62,893 bases of DNA from Paludibacteraceae bacterium. Its GTDB lineage: Bacteria > Bacteroidota > Bacteroidia > Bacteroidales > Paludibacteraceae. The stretch is from positions 1 to 62,893 of the forward strand of contig JAKSKV010000016.1 of assembly GCA_024401555.1 (NCBI GenBank). The letters run 5' to 3'. Under the pieces are notes generated by a model. It saw nothing but the letters and a program-made list of their open reading frames with translations. It was not told the DNA's origin and ran no database searches. Positions within the stretch are counted from its first letter, which is position 1; the number at the start of each line of letters is the position of its first letter. A program made the translations under genes and the position numbers. Below are positions 506 through 61,300 of this stretch, one piece after another.

Positions 506-943
506 TTAGATATCGATGCGGCCATACATTCCAGCAACAAATTGGATTCCCTTCTCTGCGCCGCTTGCAAGCCTAATGATAGATGTAAGACCACTTTGCT
601 TTTCTCCACACACACTGGTCTTTGCACCACCATCCATACGGCGTGCTACTTCCGCACCGCATGCATATCCAGACATAAGGCCACTTTGTTTTGCTCCACA
701 CACACTGGTCTCTGCACCCGCATCCATACGGCGTGCTACTTCCGCTCCGCATTCAAATCCAGACGTAAGACCACTAAATCTTGTTCCAAACACAGAGGTC
801 TCTACGCCTGCCCTGGCATCTACCTTTTCAACACTTGCAACCTCTACTCTTGGAGTGTTTCCACCTAACTTAAATGCTGCTGCGTTAGTTACTGTCGCGA
901 ATGCGATCATTGCTACTACTGGAAAAAAGAATCTTGTTTTCAT
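506..943 (-). CDS. Secreted Cys/Gly-rich repeat protein, family copy A
   Basis: Unrecognised 145-residue protein, one of four paralogues in the window. Residues 1-21 form a signal peptide (MKTR, then FFFPVVAMIAFATVTNA). Residues 1-47 are almost identical in all copies and residues from about 48 are built of modules. This copy carries a 30-residue repeat (90-bp DNA units at 591-680, 681-770 and a partial third from 771) with SVCGAKQSGL, ACGAE and ARRMD elements, and it ends in GMYGRIDI. It has its own promoter (944-1086) and a hairpin at the 3' end. The opposite strand is also open for 149 codons, but only the minus strand has signal peptide, promoter and terminator. Its function is unknown; it may be a surface or modified peptide substrate, which is inference. 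Confidence 0.7.
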   Translation of the reverse strand: MKTRFFFPVVAMIAFATVTNAAAFKLGGNTPRVEVASVEKVDARAGVETSVFGTRFSGLTSGFECGAEVARRMDAGAETSVCGAKQSGLMSGYACGAEVARRMDGGAKTSVCGEKQSGLTSIIRLASGAEKGIQFVAGMYGRIDI

Positions 944-1086
944 ATCTTTAAAATTTAATTGTTAATAATCTTTTTTGCTGTCACTGGAGTTGTTGTTTCT
1001 TCCCGTTGACGATGCAAAGGTAGGGCAAGCTTCAGGGGTGCGACGGACAGAAAAGGAAAAGCGTGCGGACAGTTTGTGAACTTCAC
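944..1086 (-). promoter_or_regulatory. Conserved promoter cassette, copy A
   Basis: Read on the minus strand this is GTGAAGTTCAC (1076-1086), 3 nt, CTGTCCG (1066-1072), 15 nt, CTGTCCG (1044-1050), 21 nt, TACCTTTG (1015-1022, matches the Bacteroidota -7 TAnnTTTG), then a leader of about 65 nt ending in the AT-rich TTAACAATTAAATTTT before the ATG. There is no TTTG 19 nt above the -7. The proximal CTGTCCG overlaps the -33 position, as expected for an activator-dependent promoter. The same geometry occurs at five other places. Confidence 0.75.
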
Positions 1087-1189
1087 ATTTTGTACGTTTT
1101 CACGAATTGCACGATTTTGTAAGTTGTTGTGTATTAGGAATGTAGGGGCGAATTGAATTCGCTACTTGAATCCCAATAGGGCTAACAGA

Positions 1190-46547: not shown

Positions 46548-46889
46548 TTAGATAGCAGCACGGCCATCCATTCCCGCAGTCACATGGATGCTTGTCTCCG
46601 CGCCGCATGCTAATCCAGATGTAAGACCTTTCAGTCCTGCGCCACACACACTGGTCTTTGCACCCGCATCCATGCGCATAGCCACTTCCGCACCGCATTC
46701 AAATCCAGACGTAAGACCACTTAGTCCTGCTCCACACACACTGGTCTCTACGCCTGCCCTGGCATCTACCTTTTCAACACTTGCAACCTCTACTCTTGGA
46801 GTGTTTCCACCTAACTTAAATGCTGCTGCGTTAGTTACTGTCGCGAATGCGATCATTGCTACTACTGGAAAAAAGAATCTTGTTTTCAT
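46548..46889 (-). CDS. Secreted Cys/Gly-rich repeat protein, family copy B
   Basis: 113 residues. The first 51 residues are identical to copies A and C (signal peptide plus AAFKLGGNTPRVEVASVEKV). Then two module units with SVCGAGLSGL, ECGAEVAMRMD and ACGAE, and an end reading TAGMDGRAAI that matches copy F's end better than A's. This mixture suggests module exchange between copies. Own promoter cassette, terminator at its 3' side. Function unknown. Confidence 0.7.
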   Translation of the reverse strand: MKTRFFFPVVAMIAFATVTNAAAFKLGGNTPRVEVASVEKVDARAGVETSVCGAGLSGLTSGFECGAEVAMRMDAGAKTSVCGAGLKGLTSGLACGAETSIHVTAGMDGRAAI

Positions 46890-47095
46890 ATCTTTAAAAT
46901 TTAATTGTTAATAATCTTTTTTGCTGTCGTCGGGGTTGTTGTTCGTTCCCGTTGACAATGCAAAGGTAGGGCAAGCTCCGGGGGGAATACGGACAGAAAA
47001 GGAAAAGCGTGCGGACAGTTTGTGAACTTCACATTTTGTACGTTTTCATGAATTGTACATTGGGTTAAATCTTTGGGTATAAGGTAGATATGAAA
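46890..47095 (-). promoter_or_regulatory. Conserved promoter cassette, copy B
   Basis: Minus strand: GTGAAGTTCAC (47022-47032), CTGTCCG (47012-47018 and 46990-46996), TACCTTTG (46961-46968), then the shared AT-rich leader to the ATG at 46889. Similarity to copies E and F extends outward to about 47090 (GGGTTAAATCTTTGGGTATA). Confidence 0.75.
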
Positions 47096-48119: not shown

Positions 48120-48461
48120 TTAGATATCGATGCGGCTATCCACTCCAGCAACCACTTGGATTCCCTTCTCTGCGCCGCATTCAAATCCAGCCATAATACC
48201 CTTTTGTCCTGCTCCACACACACTGGTCTCTGCACCCGCATCCATACGGCGTGCCACTTCCGCACCGCATGCTAATCCAGACGTAAGACCACTTAGACTT
48301 GTTCCCAACACAGAGGTCTCTACGCCTGCCCTGGCATCTACCTTTTCAACACTTGCAACCTCTACTCTTGGAGTGTTTCCACCTAACTTAAATGCTGCTG
48401 CGTTAGTTACTGTCGCGAATGCGATCATTGCTACTACTGGAAAAAAGAATCTTGTTTTCAT
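48120..48461 (-). CDS. Secreted Cys/Gly-rich repeat protein, family copy C
   Basis: 113 residues. Constant N-terminal 51 residues, then TSVLGTSLSGL, ACGAEVARRMD, SVCGAGQKGIM and ECGAEKGIQ modules and the end VAGVDSRIDI, close to copy A's end. Upstream lie its promoter cassette and, divergently, hipBA. The whole block from here into hipB is duplicated at 60177-61318. Function unknown. Confidence 0.7.
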   Translation of the reverse strand: MKTRFFFPVVAMIAFATVTNAAAFKLGGNTPRVEVASVEKVDARAGVETSVLGTSLSGLTSGLACGAEVARRMDAGAETSVCGAGQKGIMAGFECGAEKGIQVVAGVDSRIDI

Positions 48462-48680
48462 ATCTTTAAAATTTAATTGTTAATAATCTTTTTTGCTGTC
48501 GCTGGGGTTGTTGTTCGTTCCCGTTGACAATGCAAAGGTAGGGTAAGCTTCGGGGGGAATACGGACAGAAAAGGAAAAGCGTGCGGACAGTTTGTGAACT
48601 TCACATTTTGTACGTTTTCACAGATTGTACATTATGTTAAATTACTGGTTATGAGGTAGATATAAAAATATCAATGATAC
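48462..48680 (-). promoter_or_regulatory. Conserved promoter cassette, copy C
   Basis: Minus strand: GTGAAGTTCAC (48594-48604), CTGTCCG (48584-48590 and 48562-48568), TACCTTTG (48533-48540). Same spacings as the other five copies. Sequence beyond about 48650 is shared only with copy F and leads into the hipB promoter. Confidence 0.75.
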
Positions 48681-48809: not shown

Positions 48810-49163
48810 ATGGAGAACATCTATATGCTTTCAGATACGGAAATAACTAATAGGATTTCCGCAAAACTTAAAGAACTCAGGCTAAAGCAAAACATAACCC
48901 GTCAAGATATGGCTGTGAGTTCGGGACTTTCACTCTCTTCCATAGTACGAATGGAGGATGGCGATATAAAGTCATTCGACTCGTTCATCAGGATTTTAAG
49001 GACATTGGGCAAAATTGACGTGCTGTTGCCGCTGATAGAGGAAGAGCAGATAAGCCCGAATGAGTATTTCAAAATGGTGCAAGGCAATACGAAAAAGAAA
49101 CGTAAGCGAGCATCAAAGAGTAACCATATCAACATTAACGAGCAGGAGGATTCTGAATGGTAG
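48810..49163 (+). CDS. hipB: HipB-type antitoxin, XRE-family regulator
   Basis: 117 residues. Helix-turn-helix at residues 12-70 (LKELRLKQNITRQDMAVSSG, LSSIVRMEDG), then a basic linker (KKKRKRASKS) and an acidic tail. Overlaps hipA by 7 bp, the usual antitoxin-toxin coupling. HipB neutralises HipA and represses the operon. An identical copy lies at 60947-61300. Confidence 0.9.
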   Translation: MENIYMLSDTEITNRISAKLKELRLKQNITRQDMAVSSGLSLSSIVRMEDGDIKSFDSFIRILRTLGKIDVLLPLIEEEQISPNEYFKMVQGNTKKKRKRASKSNHININEQEDSEW

Positions 49164-50437
49164 ATGTAGCACGGGTAAAGATGTTTGGCAAGACCGTTGG
49201 GTATGTCAATTGGGACCCACAATATGGTGTGGCCAGATTTGAATATGATTCGGAGTTCGTAAGGAGTGGCATTCAGCCGTCGCCAATCCTTATGCCTGCG
49301 AGAGATGGTAGAATTTACAGTTTTAGAGATCTCAACCAAGACACTTTTAAGGGTCTTCCAGGTATGCTTGCAGACTCTTTGCCAGACACATATGGACGGG
49401 CTTTGTTCGACAAGTGGCTTTCATTGACAGGCAGGACGAGCGGAAACACCATAGAATCGCTTTGCTATATGGGCAAACGCTGTATGGGTGCTCTCGAATT
49501 CGAGCCAGCCATAGAAGGAGCTAACCAACCCGAACAGAAAATAGAGCTGGACAGCCTTGTTTCTGTAGCAAGAGAGGCACTTTCCGAGAAAGAGAGTTTT
49601 CAGACAAATATAAGTGACGACCAGAAATCCGCTATCGCAGAAATCCTCCGTTTAGGAACCTCTGCCGGAGGTCAGAGAGCCAAAGCAATTATAGCCTACA
49701 ATCAGGAGACGGGAGATGTCAGGTCTGGTCAGGTAGATGCCCCCAAAGGTTACGATTACTACCTGATCAAACTTGATGGAGTTTCTGCCACCGCTGGACT
49801 TAAGGAAACAGATAATTACGGAAGGCTTGAGTACTCTTTCGCCAAGTTGGTGCGAGCATGCGGAATAGATATGACCGAATGCTCGCTTATTGAGGAAAAT
49901 GGGAGGGCACACTTTCTTACCAAGCGCTTTGACCGAGTGGCGGGAGAGAAGGTTCATATGCAAACCCTTTGTGGTATTGCCCACTACGATTATCGGGTGT
50001 TGAGGGGCTATTCCTACGAACAGGCGTTCAATGTTATGCGCGGATTGAGATTGTCATACCAAGAAGCGCAGGAGATGTTTCGAAGAGTTGTATTCAATGT
50101 AATTGTCAGAAACCAAGATGACCACACAAAAAACATATCGTTTCTGATGGACAAGCAAGGGAGGTGGAGACTATCTCCTGCCTATGACATGGGGTATGCA
50201 TACAATCCTGCTGGAGCATGGACTTCTGCGCACCAAATGTCTGTGAATGGCAAATATGACGACATTACTCGAACTGATTTAATGGAACTTGCTGCTCGCA
50301 ATAACATCCGCAATGCCGGTCAAATCATCAATGAAATAGGTGACACATGCGCAGGATGGGCTCAAATTGCCAAGGAATGCGATGTTCCTCAAAAAATGAT
50401 CGACAAAATCTTACCCAATATGCTTCTGTCGATATAA
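49157..50437 (+). CDS. hipA: HipA-type serine/threonine kinase toxin
   Basis: 426 residues. N-terminal couple_HipA region (VGYVNWDPQYGVARFEYD, GLPGMLADSLPDTYGRAL), glycine-rich loop TSAGGQRAKAI, and kinase motifs NQDDHTKN (catalytic Asp near residue 318) and SPAYDMG (metal Asp). In Escherichia coli HipA phosphorylates glutamyl-tRNA synthetase and induces dormancy. All key residues are intact, so this copy should be active and must be balanced by HipB. Confidence 0.92.
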   Translation: MVDVARVKMFGKTVGYVNWDPQYGVARFEYDSEFVRSGIQPSPILMPARDGRIYSFRDLNQDTFKGLPGMLADSLPDTYGRALFDKWLSLTGRTSGNTIESLCYMGKRCMGALEFEPAIEGANQPEQKIELDSLVSVAREALSEKESFQTNISDDQKSAIAEILRLGTSAGGQRAKAIIAYNQETGDVRSGQVDAPKGYDYYLIKLDGVSATAGLKETDNYGRLEYSFAKLVRACGIDMTECSLIEENGRAHFLTKRFDRVAGEKVHMQTLCGIAHYDYRVLRGYSYEQAFNVMRGLRLSYQEAQEMFRRVVFNVIVRNQDDHTKNISFLMDKQGRWRLSPAYDMGYAYNPAGAWTSAHQMSVNGKYDDITRTDLMELAARNNIRNAGQIINEIGDTCAGWAQIAKECDVPQKMIDKILPNMLLSI

Positions 50438-50604: not shown

Positions 50605-51357
50605 TTACTTAACAGGACAAACGGCACGAACACAGTTACCATAGGTTCTTGGATAAGGGTCGGTGATATTACATTTATTTTCGTTTTCAGCGATGTCTAA
50701 AGCATAAGCACCATTGCCTGATTCATTGCACGTACTTGCCCAGTAGATACCATTCACGCCATTGCTCAAGCTTTTTTCGTCCCATCCTGCGGGCAAGAAG
50801 ATAGACTTTCCGTTCTTTGCTGTGATCTTACAGCCTCCTACGCCTTCGTAGGTAACCCACTCACTTGTGCAATTGGCGATCAACTCTTCATAATCACATC
50901 TTGTTGGAATTCTCCATGAACCGCCCAATTGAACGTGTGCCACATCATCCACCAAATCCAACACGTACTTACCGTCCGAGAAACCTTCGAATCCTACGTT
51001 ATTATTTTCATCGCTTGGCACATACTTGGTATATCCATCTGCTGATTCAGTTTCCTTGTAGTATGAGTAATCGCAACCAATAAAATTCTCTCTGGGCGAA
51101 GTCTCACCCCACGCATAAAGGTTACCGCGTGCCTCAATCTTATCGGCACCGACATTCATCGTTGCCCATAGGTTTCCACTTGGCAAACCAAGATCTACAT
51201 ACTCGACACCATTGGTTTCTCCAAATGTCGTGCACATTTCCATGCAAGTTTTATCTGTTTGCACTTGATCATCCTTGTTATCATCCTCCTTTTCACATGA
51301 CACAAATGATAACGATGCCACTAATGGCAACATAAAAAGTAAGAATCTCTTTTTCAT
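50605..51357 (-). CDS. FISUMP-domain lipoprotein
   Basis: 250 residues. Lipoprotein signal with Cys after SLSFVS (residue about 21), Asp/Lys-rich linker, then a Fibrobacter-succinogenes-major-paralogous (FISUMP) domain: YVDLGLPSGNLWATMNVGA, NLYAWGE, GSWRIPTRCDYEEL, GIYWAST and GNCVRAV. Surface lipoprotein of unknown role. It lies 92 nt downstream of a 48-residue membrane protein with a cassette promoter, and TACCTTTG recurs in the gap (about 51442-51449), so it may have its own start as well. Confidence 0.85.
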   Translation of the reverse strand: MKKRFLLFMLPLVASLSFVSCEKEDDNKDDQVQTDKTCMEMCTTFGETNGVEYVDLGLPSGNLWATMNVGADKIEARGNLYAWGETSPRENFIGCDYSYYKETESADGYTKYVPSDENNNVGFEGFSDGKYVLDLVDDVAHVQLGGSWRIPTRCDYEELIANCTSEWVTYEGVGGCKITAKNGKSIFLPAGWDEKSLSNGVNGIYWASTCNESGNGAYALDIAENENKCNITDPYPRTYGNCVRAVCPVK

Positions 51358-51449: not shown

Positions 51450-51596
51450 CTAAAATAAGAGACATAGTAACAAGATAACCACCATATAAAAGGCTCCTAT
51501 GGCCAACATACATTTACGCATCTTAGGATCTGCGAAATCTTTTTGAGGGACATCCGTTGAATAGAATAATGTGTTATAAACTTGATTCGTCTTCAT
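51450..51596 (-). CDS. 48-residue single-span membrane protein (copy D)
   Basis: MKTNQVYNTLFYSTDV at the start, DPKMRKCML near residues 23-31, and a C-terminal hydrophobic span (AIGAFYMVVILLLCLLF). A paralogue of 47 residues lies at 57278-57421; the two differ by one in-frame codon deletion and mostly amino-acid-changing substitutions while the frame stays open, which supports real coding. Preceded by cassette promoter D. Probably an inner-membrane small protein; function unknown. Confidence 0.7.
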   Translation of the reverse strand: MKTNQVYNTLFYSTDVPQKDFADPKMRKCMLAIGAFYMVVILLLCLLF

Positions 51597-51775
51597 AACC
51601 TTAAAAATTTTAATTGTTAATATTCATATTTCATTATCGCCGGGGTTGTTGTTTCTTCCCGTTGACGATGCAAAGGTAGGGTAAGCTCCGGGGGTGCGAC
51701 GGACAGATGAGGAAAAGCGTGCGGACAGTTTGTGAACTTCACATTTTGTACGTTTTCACGGATTGTACATGCCTT
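51597..51775 (-). promoter_or_regulatory. Conserved promoter cassette, copy D
   Basis: Minus strand: GTGAAGTTCAC (51732-51742), CTGTCCG (51722-51728 and 51700-51706), TACCTTTG (51671-51678), all with the standard spacings. The leader carries TATTAACAATTAAAATTT before the 48-codon gene. Here the cassette drives a different gene family from copies A, B, C and F. Confidence 0.75.
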
Positions 51776-56754: not shown

Positions 56755-57213
56755 TTACTGCAAGAAAAACTTATATCCCTTTCCGTTGATATCCAGGACA
56801 TATACGCCTCTTTTTAAGTTTGAAATCTCAATAGGAGCGGTTGTCGCATGAGCCACGACCTTTCCAGCGAGGTCATAGACTTCGAAAATAGCGTCCTCCA
56901 CGCAATTTCCGACATAAAGCATATCGCCATCGTTGTAGATGTACGGATGACCATTTTTTTCAAGCATACTATTACCTACACGTAAGGCTGACGTCTCGAT
57001 TGGCTCTTCTGCCTCCTCGGTGAAGTTCTCTTCATCGGTTTCTTCCTCCTCGATCTCTTCGATGTCGCCCTCTTCCATATCTACGCTGTATTCTTCTTCA
57101 GCAATTAACTCCATGTCAGCTGGTTGATCGTAAGTTTGTGCCAAAACTTTGGTTGGACAAAGAAGTGTTGCCATCAAAATAAAGCTTCCTAAAACGTTGG
57201 TAATAGTCTTCAT
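56755..57213 (-). CDS. Small exported protein: acidic segment plus sorting-type tail
   Basis: 152 residues. Signal peptide (ITNVLGSFILMATLLCPTKVLA), then a strongly acidic region (MEEGDIEEIEEEETDEENF) and a C-terminal domain of about 70 residues (EVYDLAGKVVAHATTAPIEI, then LKRGVYVLDINGKGYKFFL) resembling the sorting tails of the PI-PLC and M6 proteins. The tail makes up half the protein, which is unusual: little cargo remains. It lies 64 nt downstream of the 47-residue membrane protein and may be co-transcribed. Confidence 0.75.
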   Translation of the reverse strand: MKTITNVLGSFILMATLLCPTKVLAQTYDQPADMELIAEEEYSVDMEEGDIEEIEEEETDEENFTEEAEEPIETSALRVGNSMLEKNGHPYIYNDGDMLYVGNCVEDAIFEVYDLAGKVVAHATTAPIEISNLKRGVYVLDINGKGYKFFLQ

Positions 57214-57277: not shown

Positions 57278-57421
57278 CTAAAATAAAAGACATAGTAACA
57301 AGATAACCACCATATAAAAAGCTCCTATGGTCAACATACATTTACGCATCTTAGGATCTTCGATTTCTTGTTGAGGGACATCCGCTGAATAGAATGTGTA
57401 ATAAACTTGATTCGTCTGCAT
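57278..57421 (-). CDS. 47-residue single-span membrane protein (copy E)
   Basis: MQTNQVYYTFYSADV, DPKMRKCML and C-terminal span TIGAFYMVVILLLCLLF; paralogue of 51450-51596. DNA differences include one in-frame codon deletion and only two clearly synonymous changes, so the N-terminal part has diversified while DPKMRKCML and the span are kept. Driven by cassette promoter E and followed by the small exported acidic protein. Function unknown. Confidence 0.7.
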   Translation of the reverse strand: MQTNQVYYTFYSADVPQQEIEDPKMRKCMLTIGAFYMVVILLLCLLF

Positions 57422-57630
57422 AACCTTTAAATTTTTATTGTTAATATTCATATTTCATTATCGTCGGGGTTGTTGTTCGTTCCCGTTGACAATGCAAAGG
57501 TAGGGTGCGAATCAGGGGGATTACGGACAGGTTATGAAAAGCGTGCGGACAGTCTGTGAACTTCACATTTTGTACGTTTTCACGAATTGTACATTGGGTT
57601 AAATCGTTGGGTATAAGGTAGATAGTGTGT
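57422..57630 (-). promoter_or_regulatory. Conserved promoter cassette, copy E
   Basis: Minus strand: GTGAAGTTCAC (57556-57566), CTGTCCG (57546-57552 and 57524-57530), TACCTTTG (57495-57502). The sequence between and below the repeats is the most diverged of the six copies, yet every spacing is unchanged. Confidence 0.75.
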
Positions 57631-57657: not shown

Positions 57658-57701
57658 TATCAAATTGATATTTGCCAAAACTAGGAAAAGCAGTAATTTT
57701 G
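57658..57701 (+). promoter_or_regulatory. Consensus promoter of the M6 protease with upstream palindrome
   Basis: TTTG (57671-57674), 19 nt, TAATTTTG (57694-57701): a full consensus. Directly upstream lies the palindrome TATCAAATTGATA (57658-57670), a possible operator. It resembles half-sites seen before hipB. Confidence 0.75.
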
Positions 57702-57743
57702 CAACTTCAAATGGAAATACAATTCAAAAACGAGCAGCATATT

Positions 57744-60044
57744 ATGAAAAAAAGCATTCTTCTCATTATTACGATGATGGCATCAATGGCCACCTTTGCA
57801 CAGTTATTACCTTACCGACCTATACACATCGGGAAAGTGAACACATCGGGCACTGAACTTCGAGCAGCATCTATAGAGACCGCCCCTATTCCGAACGTAG
57901 GTTCACCCAAGGTGCCTGTGATATTGGTGCAGTTTCCCGACAGCAAATTTAGTTGCGACACATTGATAGACAAGACCATCGAACATTCAGATGAGAATGT
58001 GCACAGATATTTTGACAAGCTTTACAATGGCACAGGCAATCCCAATGAAGATTATATGGCCACGATAGGCAATGCAGGTTCGGTAAGAGATTATTTTGAA
58101 AAGCAATCGAGCGGAAAGTTCTCGCCCGAATTTGTCGTCATAGGTCCCGTCTCTTTACCGGAGAGTTATAGATACTATGGAGAGGATGAAAATTACGCCA
58201 ATCAAGACATTCGTATAGATGAATTTTTTGAGACCTCACTTCGCCTTTCCATTGAGACAGGCATAGACATGAATCAATTTGACAACAATAATGACGGAAT
58301 AATAGATTTCGCATTTTTCATTTATGCAGGAGAAGGACAGCATGAATATGGTCCTAAACCTGAGGACGAAGAACATAGTTATTTGATTTGGCCGAAGGAG
58401 ATCCCCACAAAAATGACCATCACAGTCAATGACGATAAAGGCAATTCTGAAAATTATATAATTGCGGCATTAGGATGCTCAAACGAGAGAAATCATGGGA
58501 AACTCCCAACTATGGGCACGATGTGTCACGAACTTTCTCATGGTCTTGGACTGCCAGATTTTTATAGCACTGATTTTTCTCTATTTGGGACCGGGTTCGG
58601 ACTTGACTATTGGGGACTAATGGATTCTGGGGATAAGTGTTTTGATGGGAAATGTCCAGTGGGATACAGCACTTACGAACTTGATTTCATGAAGTGGCGC
58701 GAGTTGAAGACCCTTCCACTTACAGGGAAACAAACCATCACCCTGGAACCCGTATCAAAAGGCGGTGTGGGTTACAAACTCGTGAATCCTGACAACGAAA
58801 ATGAATATTATATCCTTGAAAATAGGCAATGTGATGGCTATGACCAGTATTTAGGTTGGGCTAGAGACTCTTTGAGGACAAAATATGGGGCAAACACCGG
58901 ATTGCTAATTACGCATGTTGACTATGATAAAACTGCATGGGAAAGTAATACAGTAGACACGGAGATTAAGCACCAAAGGTTCACCATCCTACCTGCCGAC
59001 GAGGATTTGTCTTCTATTTTTGATTATGGTATCTCAGATAAATATTGCACATCAATGCGTGGCGATTTGTATCCTGGCATAAACAATGTCACCAGTGTTC
59101 CATCCAAAAGATTCGAACTCTATACTAGAGGATATCTCCCGATAGAAATCACGAATATTGTGGAAAATGAAGACCACACCATAACCGTAGAACTTCAGGA
59201 GGTAGAGCCAGAGGAATACCCGAAAGACTACGATTACGTTATTCAAAATTTCCAAAATGGTCAAGATATCCTTCTAACCTACAATGGTACGAAATATCAA
59301 TACGAGCATTTATTAACGATACGAGATGGTGAAGATTTAAATATCACCAAGGAATTTACAAGCACAATGGTATTATATCAAACGCAGATTGCTCAAACAG
59401 AGATATTTTCCGCCATATTGCCTTACGATGTACCTTTCCGCCAAGTGAATGCCGACATCTATAGTTTCTCTGGATTTGATGGCAAAGGCCTTCATTTCAG
59501 CAAGCAAAACACTGACGACAACAGCGAGGGCGTCATGAAAGCAAACACGCCATATTTGCTAAAGAGTCGTGGAGAAGGAAACCCATTCAACTGGATGTTA
59601 TACATAGATATGAAGACCACCACATCTCCGGAAGATTACGTCGTGAACGTGGGCGATGCCACTCTTTTCGGCACCTATAAGACATTGCACTATTACAGTG
59701 GAGAAGAAGCAGAGGATGGTGAGTCTTATTACGATTATTATGAATACACTGACGGCAAGTTCAGCCGCATGACAGACCTTACCGTGTCAGCAATGCATGC
59801 GGGCATCCGTGTTAAGAGGAGCAAAGAAGAATCCGCCACTGATGAAAGTTACGGATTGGTACTTCACGATGGCGATTACACCAACCTGATTTATTCGGAA
59901 AGTGAAAAAGCTTCCAATGGCAAAGTGAATGTGTATGATGTAACAGGTCGTGCCATCCGTCTTAATGTCGAAGAAGGGAAGAGCCTTGAAGGATTGAAAG
60001 AAGGCATTTATTTTGTGAACGACGAGAAAGTGATTGTAAGATAA
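57744..60044 (+). CDS. Exported M6-family metalloprotease with sorting-type tail
   Basis: 766 residues from the ATG at 57744, where a signal peptide begins (KKSILLIITMMASMATFAQ); an in-frame ATG at 57711 would add 11 residues. The zinc site HELSHGLGLPD near residue 262 matches HExxHxxGxxD of M6 (immune inhibitor A type) peptidases; the start of the catalytic domain (VPVILVQFPDSKF) is also typical. The C-terminal about 200 residues (ILPYDV, FDGKGLHF, KVNVYDVTGRAIRLNV, LKEGIYFVNDEKV) are homologous to those of the PI-PLC protein. Secreted or surface-attached protease. Confidence 0.9.
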   Translation: MKKSILLIITMMASMATFAQLLPYRPIHIGKVNTSGTELRAASIETAPIPNVGSPKVPVILVQFPDSKFSCDTLIDKTIEHSDENVHRYFDKLYNGTGNPNEDYMATIGNAGSVRDYFEKQSSGKFSPEFVVIGPVSLPESYRYYGEDENYANQDIRIDEFFETSLRLSIETGIDMNQFDNNNDGIIDFAFFIYAGEGQHEYGPKPEDEEHSYLIWPKEIPTKMTITVNDDKGNSENYIIAALGCSNERNHGKLPTMGTMCHELSHGLGLPDFYSTDFSLFGTGFGLDYWGLMDSGDKCFDGKCPVGYSTYELDFMKWRELKTLPLTGKQTITLEPVSKGGVGYKLVNPDNENEYYILENRQCDGYDQYLGWARDSLRTKYGANTGLLITHVDYDKTAWESNTVDTEIKHQRFTILPADEDLSSIFDYGISDKYCTSMRGDLYPGINNVTSVPSKRFELYTRGYLPIEITNIVENEDHTITVELQEVEPEEYPKDYDYVIQNFQNGQDILLTYNGTKYQYEHLLTIRDGEDLNITKEFTSTMVLYQTQIAQTEIFSAILPYDVPFRQVNADIYSFSGFDGKGLHFSKQNTDDNSEGVMKANTPYLLKSRGEGNPFNWMLYIDMKTTTSPEDYVVNVGDATLFGTYKTLHYYSGEEAEDGESYYDYYEYTDGKFSRMTDLTVSAMHAGIRVKRSKEESATDESYGLVLHDGDYTNLIYSESEKASNGKVNVYDVTGRAIRLNVEEGKSLEGLKEGIYFVNDEKVIVR

Positions 60045-60176: not shown

Positions 60177-60596
60177 TTAGATTTCGATGCGGCCATCCAT
60201 TCCCGCAGTCACTTGGATGCTTGTCTCCGCACCGCATTCAAATCCAGACGTAAGACCCTTTTGTCCTGCTCCACACACACTGGCCTTTGTGCCTGCCTTG
60301 GCATCCACATCCATACGACGAGCTAATTCTGCGCCTGCTTTGGCATCCACGTCCATACGGAAATCTACTCTTTTATCTACTTTGATATCCATCTCCGCAC
60401 CGCTTGTAAACACAGATGCAAGGCCACTTAGTCTTGCCCCCAACACAGAGGTCTCTACGCCTGCTCTGGCATCTACTTTTTCAACACTTGCAACCTCTAC
60501 TCCTGATTCGTTTACACCTAACTTAAATGCTGCTGCGTTAGTTACTGTCGCGAATGCGATCATTGCTACTACTGGAAAAAAGAATCTTGTTTTCAT
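60177..60596 (-). CDS. Secreted Cys/Gly-rich repeat protein, family copy F
   Basis: 139 residues. Constant signal peptide, but after AAFKLG it reads VNESGVEVASVEKV instead of GNTPRVEVASVEKV. The module region differs most: a tandem RMDVDAKAG element (twice, with LARRMDVDAKAG) replaces a Cys unit, followed by SVCGAGQKGL, ECGAE and the end TAGMDGRIEI. It shows that modules can be swapped and expanded while the N-terminus is fixed. Its promoter and adjacent hipB are nearly identical to those of copy C. Confidence 0.7.
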   Translation of the reverse strand: MKTRFFFPVVAMIAFATVTNAAAFKLGVNESGVEVASVEKVDARAGVETSVLGARLSGLASVFTSGAEMDIKVDKRVDFRMDVDAKAGAELARRMDVDAKAGTKASVCGAGQKGLTSGFECGAETSIQVTAGMDGRIEI

Positions 60597-60810
60597 ATCT
60601 TTAAAATTTAATTGTTAATAATCTTTTTTGTTATCGTCGGGGTTGTTGTTTGTTCCCGTTGACAATGCAAAGGTAGGGCAAGCTTCAGGGGTGCGACGGA
60701 CAGAAAAGGAAAAGCGTGCGGACAGTTTGTGAACTTCACATTTTGTACGTTTTCATGAATTGTACATTGGGTTAAATCTTTGGGTATAAGGTAGATATGA
60801 AAATATAACA
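60597..60810 (-). promoter_or_regulatory. Conserved promoter cassette, copy F
   Basis: Minus strand: GTGAAGTTCAC (60729-60739), CTGTCCG (60719-60725 and 60697-60703), TACCTTTG (60668-60675). The outward flank continues into the hipB upstream region, as in copy C. Confidence 0.75.
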
Positions 60811-60946: not shown

Positions 60947-61300
60947 ATGGAGAACATCTATATGCTTTCAGATACGGAAATAACTAATAGGATTTCCGCA
61001 AAACTTAAAGAACTCAGGCTAAAGCAAAACATAACCCGTCAAGATATGGCTGTGAGTTCGGGACTTTCACTCTCTTCCATAGTACGAATGGAGGATGGCG
61101 ATATAAAGTCATTCGACTCGTTCATCAGGATTTTAAGGACATTGGGCAAAATTGACGTGCTGTTGCCGCTGATAGAGGAAGAGCAGATAAGCCCGAATGA
61201 GTATTTCAAAATGGTGCAAGGCAATACGAAAAAGAAACGTAAGCGAGCATCAAAGAGTAACCATATCAACATTAACGAGCAGGAGGATTCTGAATGGTAG
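60947..61300 (+). CDS. hipB: HipB-type antitoxin, second copy without toxin
   Basis: 117 residues, the same protein sequence as the copy at 48810-49163, with the same upstream operators. The overlapping hipA is destroyed, so this is an orphan antitoxin. It should still repress both promoters and neutralise the intact HipA, raising antitoxin dosage. Confidence 0.88.
   Translation: MENIYMLSDTEITNRISAKLKELRLKQNITRQDMAVSSGLSLSSIVRMEDGDIKSFDSFIRILRTLGKIDVLLPLIEEEQISPNEYFKMVQGNTKKKRKRASKSNHININEQEDSEW

Follow-up and report, generated by a model that had tools for sequence, protein, structure and literature searches.

Six repeated blocks on the minus strand of the window, by which we mean the whole stretch of 62,893 nucleotides that was analysed, are, judging from genome comparison, promoters of a real regulon that serves mostly small exported or membrane proteins in Bacteroidales known here as metagenome assemblies. 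The initial annotation had suspected an unrecognised regulon, and this was borne out by 57 strong elements in 19 of 300 genomes and four genera, by a spacing that is kept in 50 of 55 elements and by an enrichment of N-terminal hydrophobic stretches in the proteins encoded downstream. The regulator is probably a membrane-embedded protein of the AraC type. AraC proteins with several transmembrane (TM) segments are more widespread in these genomes; for one of them, sequence comparison alone now gives an exact operator, the class of promoter and the genes that it would control in four genera, which makes its role as the regulator directly testable. AraC-type activation is itself known; what would be new here is such activation by a membrane-embedded regulator, together with a 5' leader common to most target mRNAs. 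In the literature within reach, to which subscription journals mostly did not belong, we found no multi-TM AraC regulator with an assigned DNA site or target set.

The six elements of the window

The order GTGAAGTTCAC, 3 nt, CTGTCCG, 15 nt, CTGTCCG, 21 nt, TACCTTTG, first described in the initial annotation, was recovered at the same positions in six of six minus-strand copies, including copy E, whose spacer bases differ and whose spacing is identical to that of the other five. The palindrome GTGAAGTTCAC is the centre of an inverted repeat, formed by the junction of two 15-bp half-sites (HS2 and HS3), and there are two further half-sites upstream, TGTACAATTCGTGAA and CGTACAAAATGTGAA. In reading order the element consists of HS1 and HS2 (both oriented away), one base, HS3, 7 nt, HS4, 21 nt and the −7 box TAnnTTTG.

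All features given in this paragraph lie on the minus strand, and each element is measured from HS1 to the −7 box. Element A (1015..1113) comprises a degenerate HS1 (1099-1113), HS2 (1082-1096), HS3 (1066-1080), HS4 (1044-1058) and the −7 box TACCTTTG (1015-1022). At the predicted mRNA start there is a likely 5' leader hairpin that begins with GTCAACGGGAA (980..1010), and target A (506..943) is a 145-aa exported protein with the N-terminus MKTRFFFPVVAMIAFATVTNAA and an internal tandem repeat of 90-bp units (586-803). Element B (46961..47059; HS1 47045-47059, HS2 47028-47042, HS3 47012-47026, HS4 46990-47004, −7 box 46961-46968) and element C (48533..48631; HS1 48617-48631, HS2 48600-48614, HS3 48584-48598, HS4 48562-48576, −7 box 48533-48540) come with likely leader hairpins at 46926..46956 and 48498..48528, respectively, and with two 113-aa exported proteins of the family of target A, target B (46548..46889) and target C (48120..48461). 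No Pfam family scored above the cut-off in targets A and B. Element D (51671..51769; HS1 51755-51769, HS2 51738-51752, HS3 51722-51736, HS4 51700-51714, −7 box 51671-51678; likely leader hairpin 51636..51666) serves target D (51450..51596), a 48-aa protein with a single C-terminal hydrophobic, TM-like stretch. The gene found 3' of target D (50605..51357), possibly the second gene of the same transcript, encodes a 250-aa lipoprotein-like protein with a weak Lcl_C match below the Pfam cut-off. Element E (57495..57593; HS1 57579-57593, HS2 57562-57576, HS3 57546-57560, HS4 57524-57538, −7 box 57495-57502; likely leader hairpin 57460..57490) serves target E (57278..57451), a small TM protein of 57 aa from the first ATG, or of 47 aa if it starts, in line with its paralogues, at an internal ATG. 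Element F (60668..60766; HS1 60752-60766, HS2 60735-60749, HS3 60719-60733, HS4 60697-60711, −7 box 60668-60675; likely leader hairpin 60633..60663) serves a 139-aa exported protein, again of the family of target A (target F, 60177..60596). The view that the promoters serve two unrelated gene families held within the window, with four exported proteins of one family and two small TM proteins, but not genome-wide, where at least five kinds of target were found.

Several other genes adjoin the elements. A HipB/HipA-like pair lies next to element C (48810-50437, plus strand), and a second gene for its 117-aa HipB-like protein adjoins element F (60947-61300, plus strand), this time with no HipA gene following. 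A gene for an M6 peptidase of the immune inhibitor A type (57672-60044, plus strand) is divergent from element E, and downstream of target E we observed a 152-aa protein (56755-57213, minus strand) with a weak, below-cut-off match to a secretion tail.

We compared the elements with the Bacteroides promoter consensus, given as TAnnTTTG at −7 and TTTG at about −33 (PMC7366714). The elements resemble these primary-sigma promoters in the TAnnTTTG at −7 and differ from them in having HS4 instead of the −33 TTTG: as had already been noticed, the TTTG is missing and the proximal repeat sits over its place, CTGTCCG being found there in all six window copies. The end of HS4 is 21 nt away from TAnnTTTG, so that HS4 covers the −33 region and would abut or overlap the upstream polymerase contact.

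Distribution, spacing and targets of the element

A genome-wide scan for the spaced motif, the check proposed by the initial annotation, found GTGAAGTTCAC-N3-CTGTCCG at 10 places in the 3.52 Mb host genome (compare with 0 for the reversed control pattern), all 10 with TACCTTTG at the same distance. When CTGTCCG-N15-CTGTCCG was allowed up to 2 mismatches, the same 10 exact sites were accompanied by 15 inexact ones, which is the chance level (12 for the reversed control). R1, a sequence-only profile built from 26 elements, also picked up a diverged element on contig C116 (E=7e-12), which brings the host total to 11. In the window R1 gave the same six elements as strong matches, plus weak reverse-strand matches to five of the six that result from the array being nearly palindromic. 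Among the 300 genomes of the family, the exact spaced pattern followed by a TAnnTTTG box was present in 8, belonging to 4 of 33 genera, and R1 detected 57 strong elements (E<=1e-9, counted from the table) in 19 genomes of the same four genera. Eight further family genomes matched R1 only at E values of 0.0028-0.0079, which we took as chance, and in an order-level sample of 344 genomes an R1 element at E<=1e-5 was found only in the window's own genome. A flexible pattern, CTGTCCGN{10,20}CTGTCCG, was tried and rejected: it matched 110 of the 300 genomes, and outside the element genomes the matches listed had, by eye, the look of scattered chance spacings. In one relative (G080, locus L186, 3584-3856) two elements, one of them decayed, stand back to back, one on each strand and separated by about 100 bp.

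Subsets of the host-genome copies have tens to about 100 bp of flank in common (by eye), meaning that these copies are partly recent duplicates and that the independent evidence is the comparison between genera. Such long near-identical stretches, which include flank and signal-peptide sequence, would fit a block that has spread through the genome as a passive or mobile repeat and regulates nothing by itself, and the initial annotation had named a passive repeat with no conserved spacing elsewhere as the outcome that would speak against a regulon. We examined 55 of the 57 strong elements, leaving out G085 C13:28402 and G106 C20:8503 (in the latter the R1 match ends short of the −7 box). A TAnnTTT box was found at 63–65 nt from the palindrome in 54 of the 55, namely at 64 nt in 50, at 63 nt in 2 and at 65 nt in 2; the one element devoid of the box is a decayed copy. 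The 26 training elements had been selected for a distance of 64 nt, but this distance was also found in 24 of the 29 elements outside the training set. As this distance is kept in 50 of 55 elements across four genera, we consider the blocks to be a regulon and a passive repeat to be extremely improbable.

The conservation of individual positions argues in the same direction. With genera weighted equally, over 49 elements chosen for having palindrome and box at distance 64, HS2, HS3, HS4 and the −7 box reached 1.3–1.5 bits per position in the four genera, against 0.5–0.9 for the main spacers and the far flank (0.86 for the HS3-HS4 gap, 0.72 for the 21-nt spacer and 0.52 far upstream); this choice of elements partly raises the values of the box, while HS4 is unaffected by it and still stands out. 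Conservation drops to 0.89 bits in HS1; the 2-nt gap that separates it from HS2 gave 1.23 bits and the 5' part of the leader 1.28 bits. We read this profile as selection on the boxes and on their spacing. The consensus over 54 elements was TTCACatTTTGtaC. for rcHS2, TTCACAAccTGTcCg for HS3 and TTCcT.ttcTGTCCg for HS4, and within an element rcHS2, HS3 and HS4 are identical to one another at 9.6–10.5 of 15 bases, compared with 4.2–4.7 after column permutation (0/2000 each). HS3 and HS4 are direct repeats with a period of 22 bp; the two elements that immediately precede the AraC gene in G106 and G063 have a period of 23 bp and keep the 21 nt to the −7 box. The distance between HS1 and HS2 is variable, from 17 to 20 bp.

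We then looked at the genes served by the elements. In 50 of 55 cases the start of an ORF of 28 aa or more lies within 260 nt, which is a further argument against a passive repeat. A strongly hydrophobic N-terminal stretch was present in 43 of the 50 first ORFs found after the 55 elements, compared with 53 of 113 background ORFs (p=2e-6, paralogues not being collapsed in this count). The median length was 92 aa for first ORFs and 293 aa for the background, two values that are not strictly comparable, the background being ORFs of at least 90 aa in nine loci, some targets included. More copies in front of small secreted or membrane proteins had been named as support for a regulon, and short exported or membrane proteins do make up most of the targets. 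They include exported repeat proteins (in the window and, by eye, in the other three genera too), TM proteins of 45-57 aa, lipoprotein-like proteins and, in the host genome, a tyrosine-phosphatase-like protein. In genome G117, an element is followed by three successive near-identical ORFs for 28-aa TM peptides (L060, 7737-8250), which adjoin the AraC gene, and in seven genomes the sole element found is followed by a 90-92-aa exported protein. In relatives the element also precedes a CsgG-like gene and a gene for a YitT-type membrane protein (L178 and L176, respectively), and one relative's target has a weak beta-barrel match. Only 3 of the 21 first targets scanned passed the Pfam cut-off (Y_phosphatase3, CsgG and YitT), so that the regulon consists mostly of uncharacterised small exported proteins. 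The predicted structure of the 92-aa exported target had a mean pLDDT of 51, too low to be used. A weak RelA/SpoT-like match also follows an element in the relatives, and in one relative two exported targets (L059, 2482-2967 and 3868-4232) are built from 39-bp (13-aa) units repeated 12.5 and 9.4 times, with a recurring dibasic RR.

A membrane-embedded AraC-type protein as candidate regulator

The candidate regulator, a protein of 422 aa encoded outside the window on host contig C100:22845-24110, was found among the genes that lie beside elements on other contigs, and it has orthologues in two other genera. Its membrane part contains six hydrophobic segments according to a simple hydropathy cut and a seventh by eye. 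The AraC domain is C-terminal and scored above the curated cut-offs (67.5 bits for HTH_18, cut-off 33.6, and 39.1 bits for HTH_AraC, cut-off 26.6); SoxS, ToxT, Rob and MarA sequences match this C-terminus. Other proteins of 375-394 aa with 6-7 hydrophobic stretches and a C-terminal AraC domain are encoded at loci L161, L162, L167 and L170; those of L161 and L170 are similar to the candidate over the AraC domain only. The membrane-AraC gene was present in 15 of the 300 family genomes (E<=1e-40) and, in the order-level sample, in 1 of 344 genomes, the window's own. The relatives that carry it are metagenome assemblies labelled Paludibacteraceae or Bacteroidales, three of them marked Horse_feces and one from goat omasum, and include Candidatus Physcocola equi, which is placed in Paludibacteraceae. 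A 16th match, in Pseudoflavonifractor, covers the AraC domain only.

The gene and the element occur together. Of the 8 genomes picked out by the exact-pattern scan, which was made before the gene was known, 6 carry the AraC gene, against 9 of the 292 others (p=1e-7). With R1, all 15 AraC genomes had strong elements, 4 element genomes were devoid of the AraC gene and 281 genomes had neither (p=5e-22, a value that is partly circular because some of the elements used to train R1 had been picked up next to AraC genes). When the 13 training genomes were left out, the counts became 4/2/0/281 (p=5e-8); they were 15/0/4/16 for the four genera alone (p=1e-6) and 4/0/2/10 for the window's own genus alone (p=0.008), and since the species are related all these Fisher values overstate independence. 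The two are also linked: in 14 of the 15 genomes an element lies on the same contig and strand as the AraC gene, the fifteenth (G139) not being assessable as its gene is cut by a contig end. The distance is within 0.5 kb in 10 of the 15 (G000, G117, G106, G080, G068, G085, G063, G019, G048 and G110) and amounts to 2.8 kb in G004, 3.5 kb in G081, 12.2 kb in G151 and 13.5 kb in G103. In the host genome, elements stand on both sides of the gene. A search of the 700 bp in front of the AraC gene detected no element in 12 of the 15 genomes, meaning that this gene is not simply another target; in the other 3 an upstream element, compatible with autoregulation, is recognisable.

Co-occurrence would also be compatible with another gene of the same distribution, in which case a different transcription factor or an alternative sigma factor would read the element and the membrane-AraC gene would be a fellow traveller or a modulator. 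The four element genomes (of 19) that are devoid of the AraC gene bear on this point, and a more sensitive search of them found only other AraC proteins. Two of them, G147 (88% complete) and G095 (71%), may simply be incomplete. G054 (100%) and G036 (98%) are near-complete. In the sister genome of G054, G103, the AraC gene sits on one side of the element, and on this side just 757 bp of contig are left in G054. In G036 the contig continues for 372 bp downstream of the element, but upstream of it 6.2 kb were assembled and contain no AraC gene; assembly loss thus explains this genome poorly, and it stands as an exception. Against this reading are the linkage of gene and element, the AraC-like geometry of the half-sites, the scarcity of elements upstream of the AraC gene itself and the −7 box, an ordinary TAnnTTTG. 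We hold this reading to be rather unlikely and retain the membrane-AraC protein as the probable regulator, with the half-sites, direct repeats about 22 bp apart that are linked to its gene, as its predicted sites.

The initial annotation had proposed an unlinked LytTR-family activator, and the 22-bp period indeed falls within the LytTR range and the host genome has two LytTR genes. These genes are on contigs C35 and C2, neither of which holds an element, and LytTR genes occur whether elements are present or not: of 38 genomes chosen for comparison, 35 have PF04397 (17 of the 19 that carry elements and 18 of the 19 that do not), and the two element-bearing genomes in which it was not found are G106 (9 elements, 76% complete) and G110 (87%). 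LytTR repeats are described as 9 bp long, separated mostly by 12 and in a minority by 11 or 13 bp, and biased to 10 bp upstream of the −35 sequence (PMC6193735), and the proximal repeat of AgrA is centred near −60 (PMC4227749). In contrast, the half-sites described here are about 15 bp long and include an inverted pair, and the proximal one covers the −33 position. The period alone does not decide, but the position and the length of the half-sites speak against LytTR, an assignment that now appears very unlikely.

The geometry resembles instead that of an AraC/XylS promoter. The site of MtlR, an activator of this family, contains two similar 15-bp blocks at −72..−58 and −50..−36, upstream of the −35 sequence (PMC4514859); PmtlE and the present promoters have in common two similar 15-bp blocks in direct order with a 22-bp period. 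The two systems also share the AraC-type DNA-binding domain.

Among activator promoters of the AraC/XylS type are AraC I1-I2 and XylS/Pm. The present system differs from them by the 6-7 predicted membrane helices of the regulator, by four half-sites with an inverted centre, by the Bacteroidota −7 box, by the common 5' leader and by its targets, which are small exported proteins and not functions of sugar catabolism. As in ToxR and TcpP, a membrane segment and a DNA-binding domain are found in one polypeptide. CadC is another one-component membrane regulator of this kind, and ToxR, TcpP and CadC each have one TM helix and a winged-helix domain, unlike the several TM helices and AraC domain found here. 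The LytTR systems HdrRM and BrsRM are alike in having direct repeats upstream of the regulated promoters (those of bacteriocin genes), a membrane partner and feedback, and are different in having a LytTR domain, a separate membrane protein and 9-bp repeats located mostly 10 bp upstream of the −35 sequence.

From these data we infer how the promoters would work. The regulator would be a one-component membrane protein whose 6-7 predicted TM helices lead into an AraC-type domain on the cytoplasmic side, and it would bind the 15-bp half-sites TTCACAA-N2-TGTcCg, with HS3 and HS4 pointing at the promoter and HS2 and HS1 pointing away from it. As HS4 lies where the −33 box would otherwise be, the regulator bound there would take over the −33 contact and bring in the usual primary-sigma polymerase of Bacteroidota at the −7 box TAnnTTTG. 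The promoters would be activator-dependent and their transcripts would encode mostly small exported or membrane proteins.

The 5' leader of the transcripts

The mRNA leader begins with GTCAACGGGAA (at most 1 mismatch) exactly 4 nt past the −7 box in 40 of 54 elements, and in the host genome the leader pattern occurs only at elements (10 of 11; control 0). Further downstream follows a second arm, CCCG..GAC, with which this one can base-pair; the loop between the two varies in length. For 46 distinct leaders, one further leader having been dropped as too short (L173), the fold was stronger than that of dinucleotide shuffles (mean z −1.95, 25 of 46 below −2), and in an arm-swap test a leader's own arms paired better than swapped ones (0/20000 for the 46 leaders and 3/20000 for 20 distinct 5' arms). 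Column-wise covariation was not above shuffles (159/500 for paired cells and 245/500 for the score) in a set of 26 of the 47 distinct leaders that omits the most diverged and the AraC-preceding ones; RNAalifold found 5 weak pairs in the leader alignment. No match to Rfam was obtained in the window at the gathering score, and the hairpin is clearly absent at two elements directly before AraC and at one before the YitT gene (L176). Since the shuffle and arm-swap tests were positive and the covariation test was null, we consider a short 5'-terminal hairpin, GTC..CGGG - loop - CCCG..GAC, to be likely at the start of most transcripts.

One conceivable arrangement is a single-protein circuit for cell-cell or self-sensing, in which the membrane part would sense the exported or membrane products of the regulon (tandem-repeat proteins and TM peptides of 28-57 aa) and the fused AraC domain would activate the same promoters, the hairpin on most target mRNAs adding a second, RNA-level control; taken as a whole, we regard this arrangement as speculative and quite unlikely. 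The hairpin itself may protect the mRNA or take part in its regulation, and its presence in a leader common to the targets suggests two levels of control.
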